Of a DNA stretch of 58,533 bases, positions 48,022 through 58,360 are shown piece after piece; the first letter of the stretch is position 1; each line of letters opens with the position of its first letter. This stretch comes from Methanocorpusculum parvum. GTDB taxonomy: Archaea; Halobacteriota; Methanomicrobia; Methanomicrobiales; Methanocorpusculaceae. Made by a program: the position numbers and the translations under genes. Under the pieces are notes generated by a model. It searched no databases, was not told where the DNA came from, and worked only from the letters and a program-made list of their open reading frames with translations. Location of the stretch: assembly GCA_015063085.1 (NCBI GenBank), contig SUTD01000006.1:1-58533 (forward strand). Reading direction: 5' to 3'.

Positions 48022-49743
48022 TTATTTTCTCTCAGCCTTTAAGCGTCTGACTTCTTCTAAAATCTTCGTTAAGATAACCTCATCAGACGGCATGTCGGTT
48101 TCAAACGCCTTCTTCACATGGATTGGAACACCGTCCAAGCGGTATGCGGTACCTTCCGCATCGATTCCAACTGATGCCACCGGGATGTGGATTTTTGCGA
48201 CCGCGGTCGAGAGGGAGATGAACGGGTCGAGAACCACCGTATTGATATTTGCCAGGTGGGCTACAGTCTCTCTTGGGAAGTGTGCGCCAAGGTCGGTTCC
48301 AATGATTAATACTGCGTCTGCCTCATGGTTTCCTAAGATATCAACACCGCTTGTCTCTCCCGGATTGTAGTGCACAATTCCTCTGGAGTAATCAACCGCG
48401 TACGGATATCCTGCCGCAAGCGAGAACATCTGGTTTGTTCCGTCCACATTCCAGTGACCGCGAAGAGGAGTTAACGTGTACTTCGTATGGCGGTTGAGTT
48501 CGTCAACCAACTCAATGCCGGCCCGCACATTCTTGTACTTGCCGCGGGACTGCGTCAGACCGATTCCGGTAAAGAACGAACCGAACTTTGCCGAGAGCAG
48601 AATATCTGCGAGTTTGAAGATAACATTTCTCTCAACACCGGCAACCGTCTCCGGGATGACATCGCGTTCTCCCCGCACACAGGCGCGAAGAGCATTGAAG
48701 AGTGCAAAGTCTCCTCCGGGCTTTACCTGCACAAACACGTCCGCGAGTTTTGCCGTCTCGGACTCTCTGATATCGACTACGATAACGGTTCTGTTGCCTC
48801 TCCCCTCCTCGCGGAATGCACCGGTCGAGAATGTCGAGTAGCGGGATAAGTGTCTTGGATGTGCTGCAATCGGATTGCATCCCCAGTAGACGATAACATC
48901 TGCTCTGTTCTTAATCTGACCAAGCGTACATCCCGGGTGTCCGACCTCCTGGACGGCCATAATTGTCGGCCCGTGACACTCAGAGGAACAGTTATCCATC
49001 ACCGCGCCAATCTCCTCTGCAATCTCCAGACCGATGTGCATCGCCTCAGTTGAAGTGCCGGACCATCCGTAGAAGAGCGCACGCTTTGCGTCAACGAACA
49101 TCTTTGCGACCTTCTTTACCGCATCGTCAAAGTCAGTCTCAACCCAGCGGTCGCCCTGGCGTTCGATTGGGGAGATCATTCTGCCCTTCGAGCAGAATTT
49201 ACCGGCAGAGAGCAGACATCCATTGACAACTTCTGTTACCACACCGTCTTTTACGTGAAGCTCGATGTCATCACAGAGACAGCCGCAGAGAGGGCATGCC
49301 GCATGCTTTACCACCTTTTCGCCCTGCTCTGCTCCCGGAAGCTTAATTCCCTCAGGCACTGCATAGCGAAGGCCGCCTAAGTGCTCCATTAAATCCCATG
49401 CGGATTCGAGCGGTCTGTCAGTCGGCTCAACCTCAACTGCCATACCCTTGAAGTCCGGTGCACCTGTTGCATGCGTCTTCTCATGCAGAATGAAGTTTGC
49501 ATGCGGACCGCACGGAATAAACACAACTCCTTCCGGAGTTTCCGGAGATTCGCGGACATAAAAGACCGTCTCGCCTGCGGTACTTGAGATTACAACATGG
49601 TCTCCTTCCTCAACACCGATTTCCATGCAGTCCATCGGGTGAAGGAAACAGTATGAAGTCTCACGCGAATATTCCGGAGTATCCTTATAGTACAGCTGGG
49701 CTCCCTGCTCAGGAGTTCGCCCGCTGCTCATCATCATCTTCAT
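48022..49743 (-). CDS. fwdB: Fused formylmethanofuran dehydrogenase subunits D and B
   Basis: A 573-residue protein catalysing CO2 reduction to formyl-methanofuran at a molybdo/tungstopterin site. Residues about 1-120 match the FwdD/FmdD molybdopterin-dinucleotide-binding domain (SSGRTPEQGAQLYYKD, MDCMEIGVEEGDHVVISS, GVVFIPCGPHAN); from about 145 onward it is FwdB: 4Fe-4S motif CPLCGCLCDD (Cys 150, 153, 155, 157) and SSECHGPT whose Cys256 is the likely metal ligand. The two are usually separate genes. The GAGAGGGAAG sequence just before ATG 49743 favours this start over 49800. Divergent from mobB, which makes its cofactor. Subunits A, C, E-G are not in this window. Confidence 0.92.
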   Translation of the reverse strand: MKMMMSSGRTPEQGAQLYYKDTPEYSRETSYCFLHPMDCMEIGVEEGDHVVISSTAGETVFYVRESPETPEGVVFIPCGPHANFILHEKTHATGAPDFKGMAVEVEPTDRPLESAWDLMEHLGGLRYAVPEGIKLPGAEQGEKVVKHAACPLCGCLCDDIELHVKDGVVTEVVNGCLLSAGKFCSKGRMISPIERQGDRWVETDFDDAVKKVAKMFVDAKRALFYGWSGTSTEAMHIGLEIAEEIGAVMDNCSSECHGPTIMAVQEVGHPGCTLGQIKNRADVIVYWGCNPIAAHPRHLSRYSTFSTGAFREEGRGNRTVIVVDIRESETAKLADVFVQVKPGGDFALFNALRACVRGERDVIPETVAGVERNVIFKLADILLSAKFGSFFTGIGLTQSRGKYKNVRAGIELVDELNRHTKYTLTPLRGHWNVDGTNQMFSLAAGYPYAVDYSRGIVHYNPGETSGVDILGNHEADAVLIIGTDLGAHFPRETVAHLANINTVVLDPFISLSTAVAKIHIPVASVGIDAEGTAYRLDGVPIHVKKAFETDMPSDEVILTKILEEVRRLKAERK

Positions 49744-49783
49744 ATTCTCTTCCCTCTCGTATGTACTCAATATGTTTCGGGTA

Positions 49784-49798
49784 AAAAGTAATAAATCC
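49784..49798. promoter_or_regulatory. Shared A/T box of divergent fwdDB and mobB promoters
   Basis: The AGTAATAAATCC sequence reads as a TATA-like box on both strands. It is about 28 bases before mobB ATG 49825 (leaderless) and predicts a leader of some 20 bases for the fused fwd gene, so both may be transcribed from one element. Confidence 0.4.
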
Positions 49799-49824
49799 AA
49801 CTCACGCGAAACTCTTAACAGTTA

Positions 49825-54075: not shown

Positions 54076-54090
54076 GAATCCGTATTCTCA
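54073..54090. terminator. Hairpin between convergent fumarase and BMP genes
   Basis: TGAGAAT (54073-54079), CCGT, ATTCTCA (54084-54090): a perfect seven-pair stem that includes the stop codon of the beta subunit. No T-run, so it may protect transcript ends rather than terminate. Confidence 0.4.
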
Positions 54091-55146
54091 CAGCCGCTCT
54101 TTTGAAAAACCGTTGATTCCGTACTTCACTGCTGACGGAACAGCAATCTTTCCCTCGGCAATTTCCTGCTCAACGGCTTTTGCTTTTTTGATAACAGACT
54201 CCGGGACAACGTCTTTCATATATCCGGCAACTCCTACATAGTCCCCGTCTGCATATCCTAAGATGACTGTTTCTCCGCTGAAGTCCTCCCCTGCTTTGTA
54301 GCGGAGAACCGTATCGCGTACTGCCTGCGGGATGTGTTTTACCACACTGAAAATCACTGCATCAGGGGCTAAATAACTCTGGTCCACATCAACGCCGATG
54401 ACATATTTTCCGCAATCATCTGCTGCTTCAATCACTCCTGTTCCGCAGGTTCCGGCAACCTGATACACAATGTCTGCTCCTGCATCGTACATCGAAAGAG
54501 CAGACGAGTAGCCGAGACCTGCATCGAGGAACGAACCGGTGTAGTCGAATAACACCTCTATATCAGCACCCCGTTCCTTTTCCGCCCGCTCAACTCCTGC
54601 GGCAAATCCTACGGCAAAGTCCTCGACAATATAGGTCTGCACCCCTCCGACGAATCCGATAATCTTTGATTCTGTTACCATTCCTGCGACATATCCTGCG
54701 ACATAACTCGGCTCATTCGAGCGGAAAATAATATTTCCCACATTGTCCGGCTGTTCTCCTGCGGAGTAGTCAGTATCCACCATCAGATACTTCTGCGCCG
54801 GATTTGCCAGAGCTGAAGAGGTCATTGAGTCGATGACCGTATATCCGCCGGTTACAATTATGTCTGCTTCATGCTGATGAATCAGCTCTTCTGCCGAACC
54901 CCAGACCTTGCTTACCGCGTCTTCAATGCAGGGAACGGTTACTACTCCCTCCTCTTTGCTTAACAGATAGACGCCTTCTGCAATCTGCAGCGTAAACGAA
55001 TCAAATCCGCTTTCCAGCTCCATCACCAGACCAACGGTGTACTCCTCTTCTTCCGGGGCGAACAGTGTGTCTGCGGTAAAAATATAGCCGACAAAACAGA
55101 GTGTCAGAATCACCGCGGCTATACCCAGAATATCGAGGAGTTTCAT
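54088..55146 (-). CDS. Membrane-anchored BMP/PnrA-type binding protein
   Basis: A 352-residue protein with an N-terminal uncleaved-looking membrane helix (residues about 7-26, no Cys lipobox) and an external periplasmic-binding domain of the BMP family, which in bacteria binds nucleosides: YTVGLVME, DIIVTGGYTVIDS, SYVAGYVAGMVTESKIIGFVGG, AFAAGVERAEKERGAD-like VGFAAGVERAEKE, YQVAGTCGTGVIEAADDCGKYVIGVDVDQ, and IFSVVKHIPQAV. No ABC ATPase or permease genes accompany it. It is divergent, by 44 bases, from the Nramp/5TM fusion gene, so joint control is likely. Confidence 0.88.
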   Translation of the reverse strand: MKLLDILGIAAVILTLCFVGYIFTADTLFAPEEEEYTVGLVMELESGFDSFTLQIAEGVYLLSKEEGVVTVPCIEDAVSKVWGSAEELIHQHEADIIVTGGYTVIDSMTSSALANPAQKYLMVDTDYSAGEQPDNVGNIIFRSNEPSYVAGYVAGMVTESKIIGFVGGVQTYIVEDFAVGFAAGVERAEKERGADIEVLFDYTGSFLDAGLGYSSALSMYDAGADIVYQVAGTCGTGVIEAADDCGKYVIGVDVDQSYLAPDAVIFSVVKHIPQAVRDTVLRYKAGEDFSGETVILGYADGDYVGVAGYMKDVVPESVIKKAKAVEQEIAEGKIAVPSAVKYGINGFSKERL

Positions 55147-55190: not shown

Positions 55191-57173
55191 ATGAAGGAGA
55201 GCAGACTGTCCCGTTTCAGGAAATGGTTCGCAAACACGTTTGTGTTCTTCGGACCCGGTCTTCTTCTGGCAATTACTGCCGCAGGCGAGGCCGGAATCAC
55301 TGAAGCGATTGAGATTGGAGCACACTTCGGGCTTGCTCTTCTCTGGGTAGTCATTATCACGCTCGTATTCAAATATGCATTCACCAACGGAATTGCCCGG
55401 TATACGCTTGCAACAGGACAGACCATCTTCGACGTCTTGCCCAAACTTCCGGGGCCGAAAAACTGGGGTCCGATTTTAGTCATTGTATCCTACTGTCTTG
55501 AGATGTTTGCAATCGGCGCAATGGTTCTTTTTGCTGCCACCTTCCTCGACTATCTTATACCGGGCGTATTTTCCCTGTTCCTTCTGTCGATAACCCTCCT
55601 TGTTGCAGCCCTGGCACTTCTTCGAACCCACATCTACCACAAGTTCGAACAGATTATGGCGGTAATCGTTCTCGTCATGGGAATCTTTATGATTATCATC
55701 CTCTCCGCCTTCCCGTTCAACGTAGAGATGATAGCATCCGGTCTCATCCCGAATATTCCAACGGGGTCAGAGACCGCAATCTTAGCAATTTTAGGAGTTG
55801 TCGGCTCAGGTCTGAACTTAATGCTGTACTCTGTGTGGCTGAAGGAAAAGACGGACAAGACAGAGGCTGCAGAGGGCGTGTGCTCTGTCAAAGGCGAGGC
55901 ATTCTTCAAGCGGTTCATCAAGAGCGTAAACATCGACATCGCGCTTGGATTCTTCATAGTCGCGCTCGTTACCTTCGGCTTCATGTGTCTCGGCTATGCC
56001 GGATTTGCCGTGTCTTTTATGCCGCACGGAGCAGAGCTTAACTTAAACATCTTAATCACCCAGGTTCTCTATCTTTTCAGCTCTATTCCGTACGGTACCT
56101 ACCTCTTCCTGCTGTTCGTGGCAGTTATCTTCTTCGGCTCTGTTGTTGTCGGAATTGATGCAAGAGCCAAGGCACTGACGCGTGTTGTCATCTCGATGCG
56201 GGAGAATGCCGAAAAGACAAAAATCAAAGGCGGCAGAATTTACCAGTTCTTCATCTGGTTATTTGTCGCAATCATTCTTCTGTCGATTGGCATCAACCAG
56301 CCGATGGCGGTCATCAGAACGAGTGCGGTTCTTTGCGCACTGCTCTTTGGTGTGTTCGGCTTCATTCTGATTTACGTAAACACCTGTCTTCCCGAATATG
56401 CACGGGCAAGCAGACTCTGGATGCTTGTGATCGGCATCGGAAGCGTGCTGTCTGTCTATGTGGCTCTTCTGATTGAAGGCTCATTTTTGGAGTTCGGGCT
56501 TCCGCTCTTTGAAAGCGTTTTAGTCTGTTCGGTTATCTTCTATATCTTCTGCCGGACAAAGACCTTCGAGCGGATGGCATCGGGAACTTCCAACATCGTT
56601 GATAAGTTCTGGGTTATCTTTATCTTTGGCATCATCTCGGTGTACGGTACCTACAGCGGAATCACCATTGCCGGAGAGTACGGAGGCTACATCCTAAACT
56701 TCAGAGACTTGGGGGCTATGGTTGCCGGAGTTTTAGGAGGGCCTGTTGTCGGATTCTTTGCGGGTTTAATCGGAGGACTGTATCGTCTCTCTGTCGGCGG
56801 AGTGACTGCTGTTCCCTGTTTCCTTGCAACGCTTGCGGCAGGTCTTCTTTCAGGATTTGCCATTCGCTCATGGAAGGGCAGATTTACCATGCGCCGGGCA
56901 GTCTACATTGCAGCAGTCGTTGAGCTGCTGCATCTTCTTGTCATCTTCCCAATTTATGTCCTTGCAGCCGGTGCGATGGACTTTGTCATGATTCAGGACG
57001 TCATTGTGACAACGCTTCTTCCGATGACCATTGTCAACGCCGCAGGTCTGATGATTTTTGCCCACTTCTCGCAGAAGTTCCCGCTTCTTGAGAGCGGTCT
57101 GAAGAAGATGACGCCAAAGAGCATTGCAGCAGAGATTCGAAGTCTTATCTCTCACGAGGAGGATACCAAATGA
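55191..57173 (+). CDS. Nramp-like transporter fused to LytS-type 5TM sensor domain
   Basis: A 660-residue polytopic protein. Residues about 15-430 resemble the Nramp/APC fold (FGPGLLLAITAAGEAGITEAIEIGA at 20-44), but the metal-binding DPGN of helix 1 is replaced by AAGEAG, and the helix 6 region (GSGLNLMLYSVWLKEK) lacks the metal-binding MPH. Residues about 465-625 match the five-helix LytS receptor domain (5TMR-LYT): AGVLGGPVVGFFAGLIGGLYRLSVGG, then LAAGLLSGFAI. In bacteria that domain sits on histidine kinases or GGDEF enzymes, not transporters. A short cytoplasmic tail (KSIAAEIRSLISHEEDTK) has no kinase. Overlaps the next gene by four bases. Confidence 0.85.
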   Translation: MKESRLSRFRKWFANTFVFFGPGLLLAITAAGEAGITEAIEIGAHFGLALLWVVIITLVFKYAFTNGIARYTLATGQTIFDVLPKLPGPKNWGPILVIVSYCLEMFAIGAMVLFAATFLDYLIPGVFSLFLLSITLLVAALALLRTHIYHKFEQIMAVIVLVMGIFMIIILSAFPFNVEMIASGLIPNIPTGSETAILAILGVVGSGLNLMLYSVWLKEKTDKTEAAEGVCSVKGEAFFKRFIKSVNIDIALGFFIVALVTFGFMCLGYAGFAVSFMPHGAELNLNILITQVLYLFSSIPYGTYLFLLFVAVIFFGSVVVGIDARAKALTRVVISMRENAEKTKIKGGRIYQFFIWLFVAIILLSIGINQPMAVIRTSAVLCALLFGVFGFILIYVNTCLPEYARASRLWMLVIGIGSVLSVYVALLIEGSFLEFGLPLFESVLVCSVIFYIFCRTKTFERMASGTSNIVDKFWVIFIFGIISVYGTYSGITIAGEYGGYILNFRDLGAMVAGVLGGPVVGFFAGLIGGLYRLSVGGVTAVPCFLATLAAGLLSGFAIRSWKGRFTMRRAVYIAAVVELLHLLVIFPIYVLAAGAMDFVMIQDVIVTTLLPMTIVNAAGLMIFAHFSQKFPLLESGLKKMTPKSIAAEIRSLISHEEDTK

Positions 57174-58360
57174 ACCACAACGAAGAGCACCGCATCGGTC
57201 TTCCGAAAAAGGGCACAATTATCATGATTGCAGTTCTGGTGATTCTGGTAAATCTCCTGTTCGTCTCGGTCGGCGACTATCCGGAGGATAATGAAATCCG
57301 CGTGGCCGTTCTTCTGCCGTTTTCAGGAGGCATGGAGGAGTTTGGAATCGAGTATGCCCGCGGTATCGAGATTGCCGTCGAAGAGCTGAATTACCATGTG
57401 CTTCCGGGAGGCAGGACATATGCCGTTGAGTACTTCGATACGAAAGGCGACACCATGTCACTTTTAAACACCTTCCTTGAGATTTACAACGAAGGGTATC
57501 CGGTTGTCATAGGCCCTATGACCTCGACCGAGGCGCTTGCAATCGCAAAGTATGCGGAGGTTCTGGGAGTTGTTCTGCTCTCTCCGGGTGCGACCACAGA
57601 TGAACTTACCGAGTACCGTGACTATGTGTTCAGAACAGTTTCATCCGACAGGTACTTAGGGCTTGGTCTGGGAAAGATTGTCGGCGGAAACGAGGCATTC
57701 GAAGATATCATGATCCTCCACACCGACGACAGTTACGGAATCGGTCTGGTCGAGCTGTTCGTTGAAGAGCTTGAGAAGTATCACAAGGAGCCGAAGGCAG
57801 TTGTTGATATTCCGCTTGAGACGTATGAGACGGAGTTCGATATGGATGCGTTTGTCGCACAGATGCAGCAGATTAATCCTGATGCTGTCTTTGCGGTCAC
57901 GCCCAACTCGGCAAGTTTTGTTGAGCTTATGGAAAAAGCCGACAAAGCCGGTCTTCACCCGCAGTGGTTTGTGACCGACAACTCAGCAAGCTCCGAGGTT
58001 GCGAGTTCCGGTGAGTTTGCAGAAGGAGTTATTGCTGCGGTTCCGTCCAAGAAAGGTTCGGATGTGACATATGCCAAACGCTATGAGGATAAGTTCCATG
58101 TTCCGATGAAAATCCTGGACTCTATCTACGGATATGATGCGATGATGATGGTATCAGAAGCAGTCAACAGCAGAGGATACACCGCAGAGCAGATTCGCGA
58201 TGGTCTTTTGGATATCAGATATGTGGGACTTTCCGGCGCTATCGTTTTTGATGAGAACGGGGACCGGTATCCGGTCTATGACGTGATGCAGGTTCGAGAC
58301 GGCGAGTGGGTTGTTCTTCCGTGGAGCGAAGTTATGTCCTTTGAGACGGGACACCATTAA
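57170..58360 (+). CDS. Membrane-anchored LivJ-type (Peripla_BP_6) binding protein
   Basis: A 396-residue protein: cytoplasmic N-terminus, one membrane helix (residues about 17-35) without lipobox, then a type I periplasmic-binding domain as in branched-chain amino-acid receptors: IRVAVLLPFSGGMEEFGIEYARGIEIAVEELN, VVIGPMTSTEALAIAKYAE, VVLLSPGATTDEL, MILHTDDSYGIGLVELF, DAVFAVTPNSASFVELMEKADKAGL and YGYDAMMMVSEAV. ATG 57170 overlaps the Nramp/5TM gene by four bases, indicating that the receptor and the membrane protein are made together. No LivH/M/G/F partners are present in the window. Confidence 0.9.
   Translation: MNHNEEHRIGLPKKGTIIMIAVLVILVNLLFVSVGDYPEDNEIRVAVLLPFSGGMEEFGIEYARGIEIAVEELNYHVLPGGRTYAVEYFDTKGDTMSLLNTFLEIYNEGYPVVIGPMTSTEALAIAKYAEVLGVVLLSPGATTDELTEYRDYVFRTVSSDRYLGLGLGKIVGGNEAFEDIMILHTDDSYGIGLVELFVEELEKYHKEPKAVVDIPLETYETEFDMDAFVAQMQQINPDAVFAVTPNSASFVELMEKADKAGLHPQWFVTDNSASSEVASSGEFAEGVIAAVPSKKGSDVTYAKRYEDKFHVPMKILDSIYGYDAMMMVSEAVNSRGYTAEQIRDGLLDIRYVGLSGAIVFDENGDRYPVYDVMQVRDGEWVVLPWSEVMSFETGHH

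Follow-up and report, generated by a model that had tools for sequence, protein, structure and literature searches.

Fusions of an Nramp-like domain with a C-terminal 5TMR domain of the S-component fold, mostly from archaea, have been described (Partipilo & Slotboom 2024, PMC11109136), and in the available text of that paper they are read as joining ion transport to sensing. A protein with the same domain order is encoded at 55191..57173 (+) of the window, which is the whole 58,533-nt stretch of Methanocorpusculum parvum DNA analysed here (order Methanomicrobiales, genus g1 = Methanocorpusculum; assembly GCA_015063085.1, contig SUTD01000006.1, positions 1-58,533, forward strand; genome completeness 79.8%). 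An earlier note on this DNA knew of no described system with such an architecture; because NRAMP-5TMR fusions are already reported in PMC11109136, the newness of the bare architecture fails. The available text of that paper makes no mention of a lost metal site, a binding-protein partner, a missing permease, a kinase-paired clade or tandem 5TMR domains, all of which are presented below. The literature search found the fusion described only there, and the supplements of the paper lay outside the search, so the pairing with a binding protein may be mentioned in them; the fusion is made of known families, and, those supplements aside, no description of its role at the level of a system was found.

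Other known proteins resemble parts of the locus. Nramp-related proteins without DPGN and MPH motifs (EleNRMT, MntG and uncharacterised groups; PMC12873925) share the Nramp fold minus the canonical metal motifs and are paraphyletic and largely uncharacterised; within the available text of that paper, neither a 5TMR domain nor a binding-protein partner is described for EleNRMT/MntG-type proteins, and the fusion clade is unmatched to the named groups. The receptors LytS, BtsS and YpdA share with the fusion a 5TMR domain, an H0-like helix and an NXR motif, but the fusion has no output domain and carries its 5TMR domain C-terminally, behind a carrier fold. To our knowledge, binding-protein-dependent, ATP-independent transporters are of two kinds, TRAP and TTT. 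TRAP transporters differ from the present proteins in membrane fold and in binding-protein family. Their likeness lies in binding-protein-fed, ATP-independent import, as outlined in the available text of PMC9971032, and is an analogy only.

The reading preferred here, at a probability of roughly 45%, is that the fusion and the binding protein encoded beside it form an ATP-independent importer or transceptor that is fed with an amino-acid-like ligand by the binding protein and, in one clade, is linked to a kinase. The partner gene, its missing permease and the S-component-like (substrate-binding) fold of the 5TMR domain go beyond what the earlier note had noticed.

Domains of the fusion protein and its metal-site positions

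The two regions named in the earlier note, Nramp-like and 5TMR-LYT, are both matched by their Pfam profiles in the 660-aa protein. The Nramp-type LeuT-fold core (residues 1-430; 55191..56480, +) matches PF01566 above the curated cut-off, is assigned to the Nramp family by NCBIfam as well, and has an Nramp fold in the model. Residues 431-627 (56481..57071, +) comprise an H0 helix and a six-helix 5TM-5TMR_LYT/S-component-like domain, assigned from PF07694 (131.8 bits against a cut-off of 24.6), the model, fold matches and similarity of H0. In the predicted structure the N-terminal domain resembles DraNramp and the C-terminal domain resembles ECF S-components; the C-terminal domain was folded separately, and the fold lists of the full model gave no matches covering it. 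No further Pfam domain, cytoplasmic catalytic output domains included, was matched in the 660 residues, in agreement with the earlier note.

Loss of the DPGN motif, likewise claimed in the earlier note, is borne out by the profile alignment to BfraNramp, in which DPGN lies opposite G32-E33-A34-G35 (55284..55295, +) in transmembrane helix 1 (TM1) and MPHN lies opposite S-G-L-N within G205-S-G-L-N209 (55803..55817, +) in TM6. Across the 24 rows of the alignment of fusion proteins, G32, E33 and G35 are invariant (TM1 consensus GE[AS]G), as are G205 and G207 (TM6 consensus [SAG]GLN), while L208 and N209 are found in 23/24 rows and residue 206 is S in 19, A in 4 and G in 1. The canonical Nramp/SLC11 signature (DPGN in TM1, MPH in TM6) is not present in the fusion group, which has thus lost its metal motifs. 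The model places helix breaks at residue 33 in TM1 and at 204-206 in TM6, as would be expected for a LeuT fold. E104 and the conserved TM3 glutamate of Nramps are about one helical turn apart in the BfraNramp alignment. Six related solo Nramp-like proteins (L109, L110, L111, L121, L174, L175; G and L numbers here denote genomes and loci) have GW[VIL]G in TM1, not GE[AS]G.

These positions bear on the suggestion in the available text of PMC11109136 that such a fusion is a metal transporter with a sensor, that is, a divalent-metal carrier of the Nramp type under the control of its 5TMR domain. Family membership by Pfam, NCBIfam and fold agrees with this suggestion, as do ZnuABC-type genes near the fusion at five loci of family f2 (L044-L048; Pfam checked for L044) and the ability of NRMT-type relatives without DPGN to move Mg2+ (PMC12873925, available text). 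However, the positions of DPGN and MPHN are occupied by G-E-[AS]-G and [SAG]-G-L-N, for which reason metal transport with sensing is not preferred; moreover, the partner is a LivJ-type protein, and ZnuABC-type clusters are absent from the ten Methanocorpusculum stretches examined. The results argue against the published suggestion, which is considered improbable.

The 5TMR domain has a sequence-profile match to RibU, and between its helices H1 and H2 lies the motif N503-F-R505 (56697..56705, +), corresponding to the NXR motif that is proposed to bind the external signal in 5TMR receptors (PMC11109136, available text). Across the 24 rows, N is present in 21 and R in 13. The S-component-like fold and the match to RibU could also be accounted for if the protein were the S-component of an ECF vitamin transporter with a borrowed Nramp anchor, but the AXXXA motif of ECF S-components is absent from helix 1 in 21/24 rows, the window protein included, and this explanation is hardly credible.

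The genome survey proposed in the earlier note for the two-domain order found the Nramp/5TMR fusion in 56 of the 232 genomes of the window's class, by a fusion-protein search in which split and truncated copies were counted; the raw class tally of 156/232 also takes in solo 5TMR, 5TMR-SpoIIE and solo Nramp-like proteins. The fusion is a real gene under purifying selection, with a ratio of nonsynonymous to synonymous substitution rates (dN/dS) of 0.09-0.14; both fusion domains are near 0.1 and the binding protein is in the same range, from comparisons of the window with two relatives (fusion) or one relative (binding protein). The estimates for the 5TMR part of L003 and for the binding protein are by NG86 only, the others also by YN00. 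Conservation and dN/dS rule out an artefact.

An orphan binding protein as partner

The TGA of the fusion gene overlaps the ATG of the next gene (ATGA), which encodes a Peripla_BP_6/ANF_receptor binding protein of 396 aa (57170..58360, +; Pfam) with a membrane anchor predicted from its sequence. Neighbours were counted at 57 fusion loci with flanks in 53 genomes. Left out of this census are G541, the second G006 copy (C86), the first G115 copy, whose binding protein is on a different contig, and the split or truncated copies of G025, G029, G030 and G116, of which that of G116 lies where a contig ends and shows only its Nramp part. The loci counted in G021 and G231 are cut at the 5′ side. At 36 loci the gene next to the fusion on the same strand encodes a Peripla_BP_6/ANF_receptor protein, 35 times downstream and once upstream (G134); the pair spans three families, and the two open reading frames (ORFs) overlap at 27 of the 36 loci, by four bases at 17. 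Neither a binding protein nor the kinase discussed in the next section is present at 16/57 loci, though among these a kinase-like gene lies downstream on the opposite strand in G055 and G471.

In a tree of 54 Nramp domains (the census omissions and G007, G021, G024, G035, G112 and G231 being left out), the binding-protein-paired group lies on one side of a branch with support 99/96 and the kinase-paired group is separate with support 100/99, so the partners follow subfamilies of the fusion; long-branch warnings apply to the solo rows and to G471 with the g37 rows, whose placement is unsure. If the fusion and the binding protein were functionally unrelated and neighbours by chance, the 21 of 57 loci at which the binding protein does not adjoin would be readily explained, but the 36 paired loci with their swapped order in one genome and their single tree group speak against it, as do the spread over three families and the 27 overlaps; chance pairing was rejected as very unlikely. 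When the binding-protein alignment was searched against the class, 32 of the 33 matches at ≤1e-100 adjoined a fusion, the other (G115) being at a contig end; at 1e-20, 107/232 class genomes match, the weaker matches including other paralogues and multidomain proteins.

LivJ- and Bmp-type binding proteins are normally paired with permeases of the BPD_transp_2 family. The protein beside the fusion belongs to the LivJ family and has kept four pocket positions, but in contrast to LivJ of the LivJ/LivHMGF ABC importer it is an orphan without a matching ABC permease: a search at E 1e-8 found a BPD_transp_2 (LivHM-type) permease in 0/36 genomes with the fusion and the binding protein, against 90/196 remaining class genomes, a contrast that is confounded by kinship. 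The control search for this comparison was positive in 12/14 genomes, and the completeness of the window genome is 79.8%. Among the 56 fusion genomes, only G110 and G231 have a BPD_transp_2 permease, and neither has a binding protein adjoining the fusion.

Solved relatives of the binding protein include LivJ and LivK. The LivJ residues S79, T102, Y150 and E226, which are taken here to be its ligand residues, map to S119, T142, Y189 and D270 of the window's binding protein; S119, T142 and Y189 are each conserved in 19/19 aligned sequences, and position 270 is D in 12 and E in 7. Because these four pocket positions are kept, in a comparison that had no non-amino-acid binders as a control, the sequence suggests an alpha-amino acid or a close analogue as ligand.

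On the other side of the fusion, 44 bp from its start, a divergent Bmp (PnrA-like) binding protein of 352 aa is encoded (54088..55146, -; Pfam). Of the 18 Methanocorpusculum loci, 9 have a Bmp gene that diverges from the fusion, and the coordinates point to the same arrangement on contig 86 of G006; Bmp (PF02608) is present in 12 copies across 11/25 Methanocorpusculum genomes. Single proteins of 723-743 aa from other members of the order unite Peripla_BP_6 and Bmp domains (L160:1515-3686, L163:1831-4062), a weak hint of a functional link between these families, both of which adjoin the fusion in the window.

Kinase-paired relatives and the proposed mechanism

A second paralogue of the fusion has a REC-HisKA_2-HATPase kinase gene directly upstream at 5/5 such loci, in two genera, with gaps of 14-134 bp; this kinase-paired clade probably works as a sensor. 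It is one reason to ask whether the fusion is a pure receptor, its LeuT-fold core being a non-transporting conformational switch and its 5TMR domain reading the loaded binding protein, with the signal going on to a separate protein in the cytoplasm, for instance the REC-HisKA_2 kinase of this clade. In other proteins, 5TMR domains stand at the head of kinases (PMC11109136, available text) and, in the window's order, SpoIIE phosphatases, and the binding protein matches ANF_receptor too. However, HisKA_2 has no match in 25/25 Methanocorpusculum genomes (G000-G024), which have 1-4 HATPase_c matches each versus 20-53 per searched genome of g2, f2 and f4, and all three HATPase matches of the window genome, which is 79.8% complete, are GyrB, Topo VI-B and MutL, none of them a kinase. 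The scan of HATPase_c loci covered 9/15 (L178, L181, L182, L185, L189 and L190 being outside it), and at L188 the ORF scanned was MutS, other than the HATPase match. Sensor kinases are absent or nearly so from Methanocorpusculum, yet strong purifying selection acts there on both the fusion and its binding protein; in addition, the fusion has no cytosolic domain and the glycines of its carrier-type helix breaks are invariant. A pure receptor is a possible but rather doubtful explanation.

Weighing against the preferred importer or transceptor are, outside Methanocorpusculum, the HisKA_2 kinases of f2 genomes in which the fusion is paired with the binding protein, which favour a pure receptor, and the single HATPase-type protein lacking a name in each of G002, G014 and G016 (L176, L180, L186). 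On the other hand, the retention of binding protein and carrier fold in a nearly kinase-free genus suggests uptake there, and the presence of a related fusion module beside a kinase suggests that the same machine is able to report occupancy. The sensor-transporter or transceptor of the earlier note stays under consideration, and both the kinase-paired clade and the conserved pairing with a binding protein speak for it, though not as a new architecture.

As an importer or transceptor, the locus would encode a membrane system of two and sometimes three components. The anchored extracellular Venus-flytrap protein (57170-58360) would catch a small ligand, an alpha-amino acid or something closely similar being the likeliest, and pass it to the fusion, in which the S-component-like 5TMR domain would provide an outward-facing membrane binding site alongside the Nramp-type LeuT-fold core. 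The core, which has lost its metal motifs and kept its broken TM1 and TM6 helices, glycine-rich and with an invariant glutamate, would move the ligand by ATP-independent alternating access, and the 5TMR domain would serve either as docking site or as occupancy sensor. At about half of the Methanocorpusculum loci the divergent Bmp protein may be a second feeder, and in the separate clade a soluble REC-HisKA_2 kinase would take the place of the binding protein, probably making a sensor. Sequences and model show the domain make-up, the lost metal motifs, the conserved pairing of genes and the lack of BPD_transp_2; we infer the class of ligand, the formation of a complex, transport and a driving ion, if there is one.

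It is conceivable, though rather unlikely, that the system adds a third kind to the binding-protein-dependent, ATP-independent transporters, next to TRAP and TTT, and is the first on a LeuT fold, with a metal-blind Nramp core, an S-component-like receptor and one or two orphan ABC-type feeders, and with a kinase-linked sensor in another clade. For the NRAMP-5TMR fusion, described but unexplained, the analysis supplies a partner, a probable class of ligand and predictions open to test. Should the complex be a transporter, a LeuT-fold carrier could be fed by ABC-type binding proteins, and importer-like and kinase-linked versions would exist together in a single family of carriers, which bears directly on the evolution of receptors from transporters. 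The system may represent an unrecognised ATP-free form of nutrient uptake or sensing in methane-making archaea.

Distribution, tandem forms and other genes

In a sample of the phylum, 29/392 genomes match the fusion at 1e-60, of which 27 have the fusion and two (G197, G209) have solo Nramp-like proteins. All of these lie in the window's order except G471, in the family of which the fusion is present in 2/80 genomes (G471 and the added G541). The fusion ORF is interrupted in G007 (L036) and G035 (L033/L053) and split in G025 and G029, and the binding-protein gene is split in G112 (L169).

Some fusions carry more than one 5TMR domain: two in G097 and G098, two recognisable ones in G199, G201, G205 and G208, and three in G471 and G541. 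The loci that encode Nramp-like proteins with such tandem repeats of two or three domains include L107, L108, L161 and L191. No binding protein lies beside the tandem fusion at any of the seven tandem loci examined, a set that does not include G541. At L104, the g37 tandem protein ends in approximately 300 residues without a Pfam match. Directly after the g37 tandem fusions, at 4/4 loci, is a gene for a 327-aa protein, which is a phosphofructokinase at L104:10402-11385; the others are beside L103, L105 and L106.

Histidine stands at the C-terminal end of 24/31 fusion-paired binding proteins versus 3/191 other C-termini (near relatives kept in). The tails that end in histidine vary in length and sequence, and the N-termini of the Methanocorpusculum binding proteins are also rich in histidine. 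Peripla_BP_6 is fused to Peptidase_C13 in genomes of the same order (L156:974-3073, L158:685-2829, L162:3677-5818). At L055:5089-6944, a fusion of 5TMR with a SpoIIE phosphatase directly follows a STAS-domain gene, making an archaeal module that resembles partner switching. Elsewhere in the window, a 592-aa ORF (48025-49800, -) joins an FwdD-like molybdopterin-binding domain (residues 20-140) to formylmethanofuran dehydrogenase subunit B (residues 167-584).
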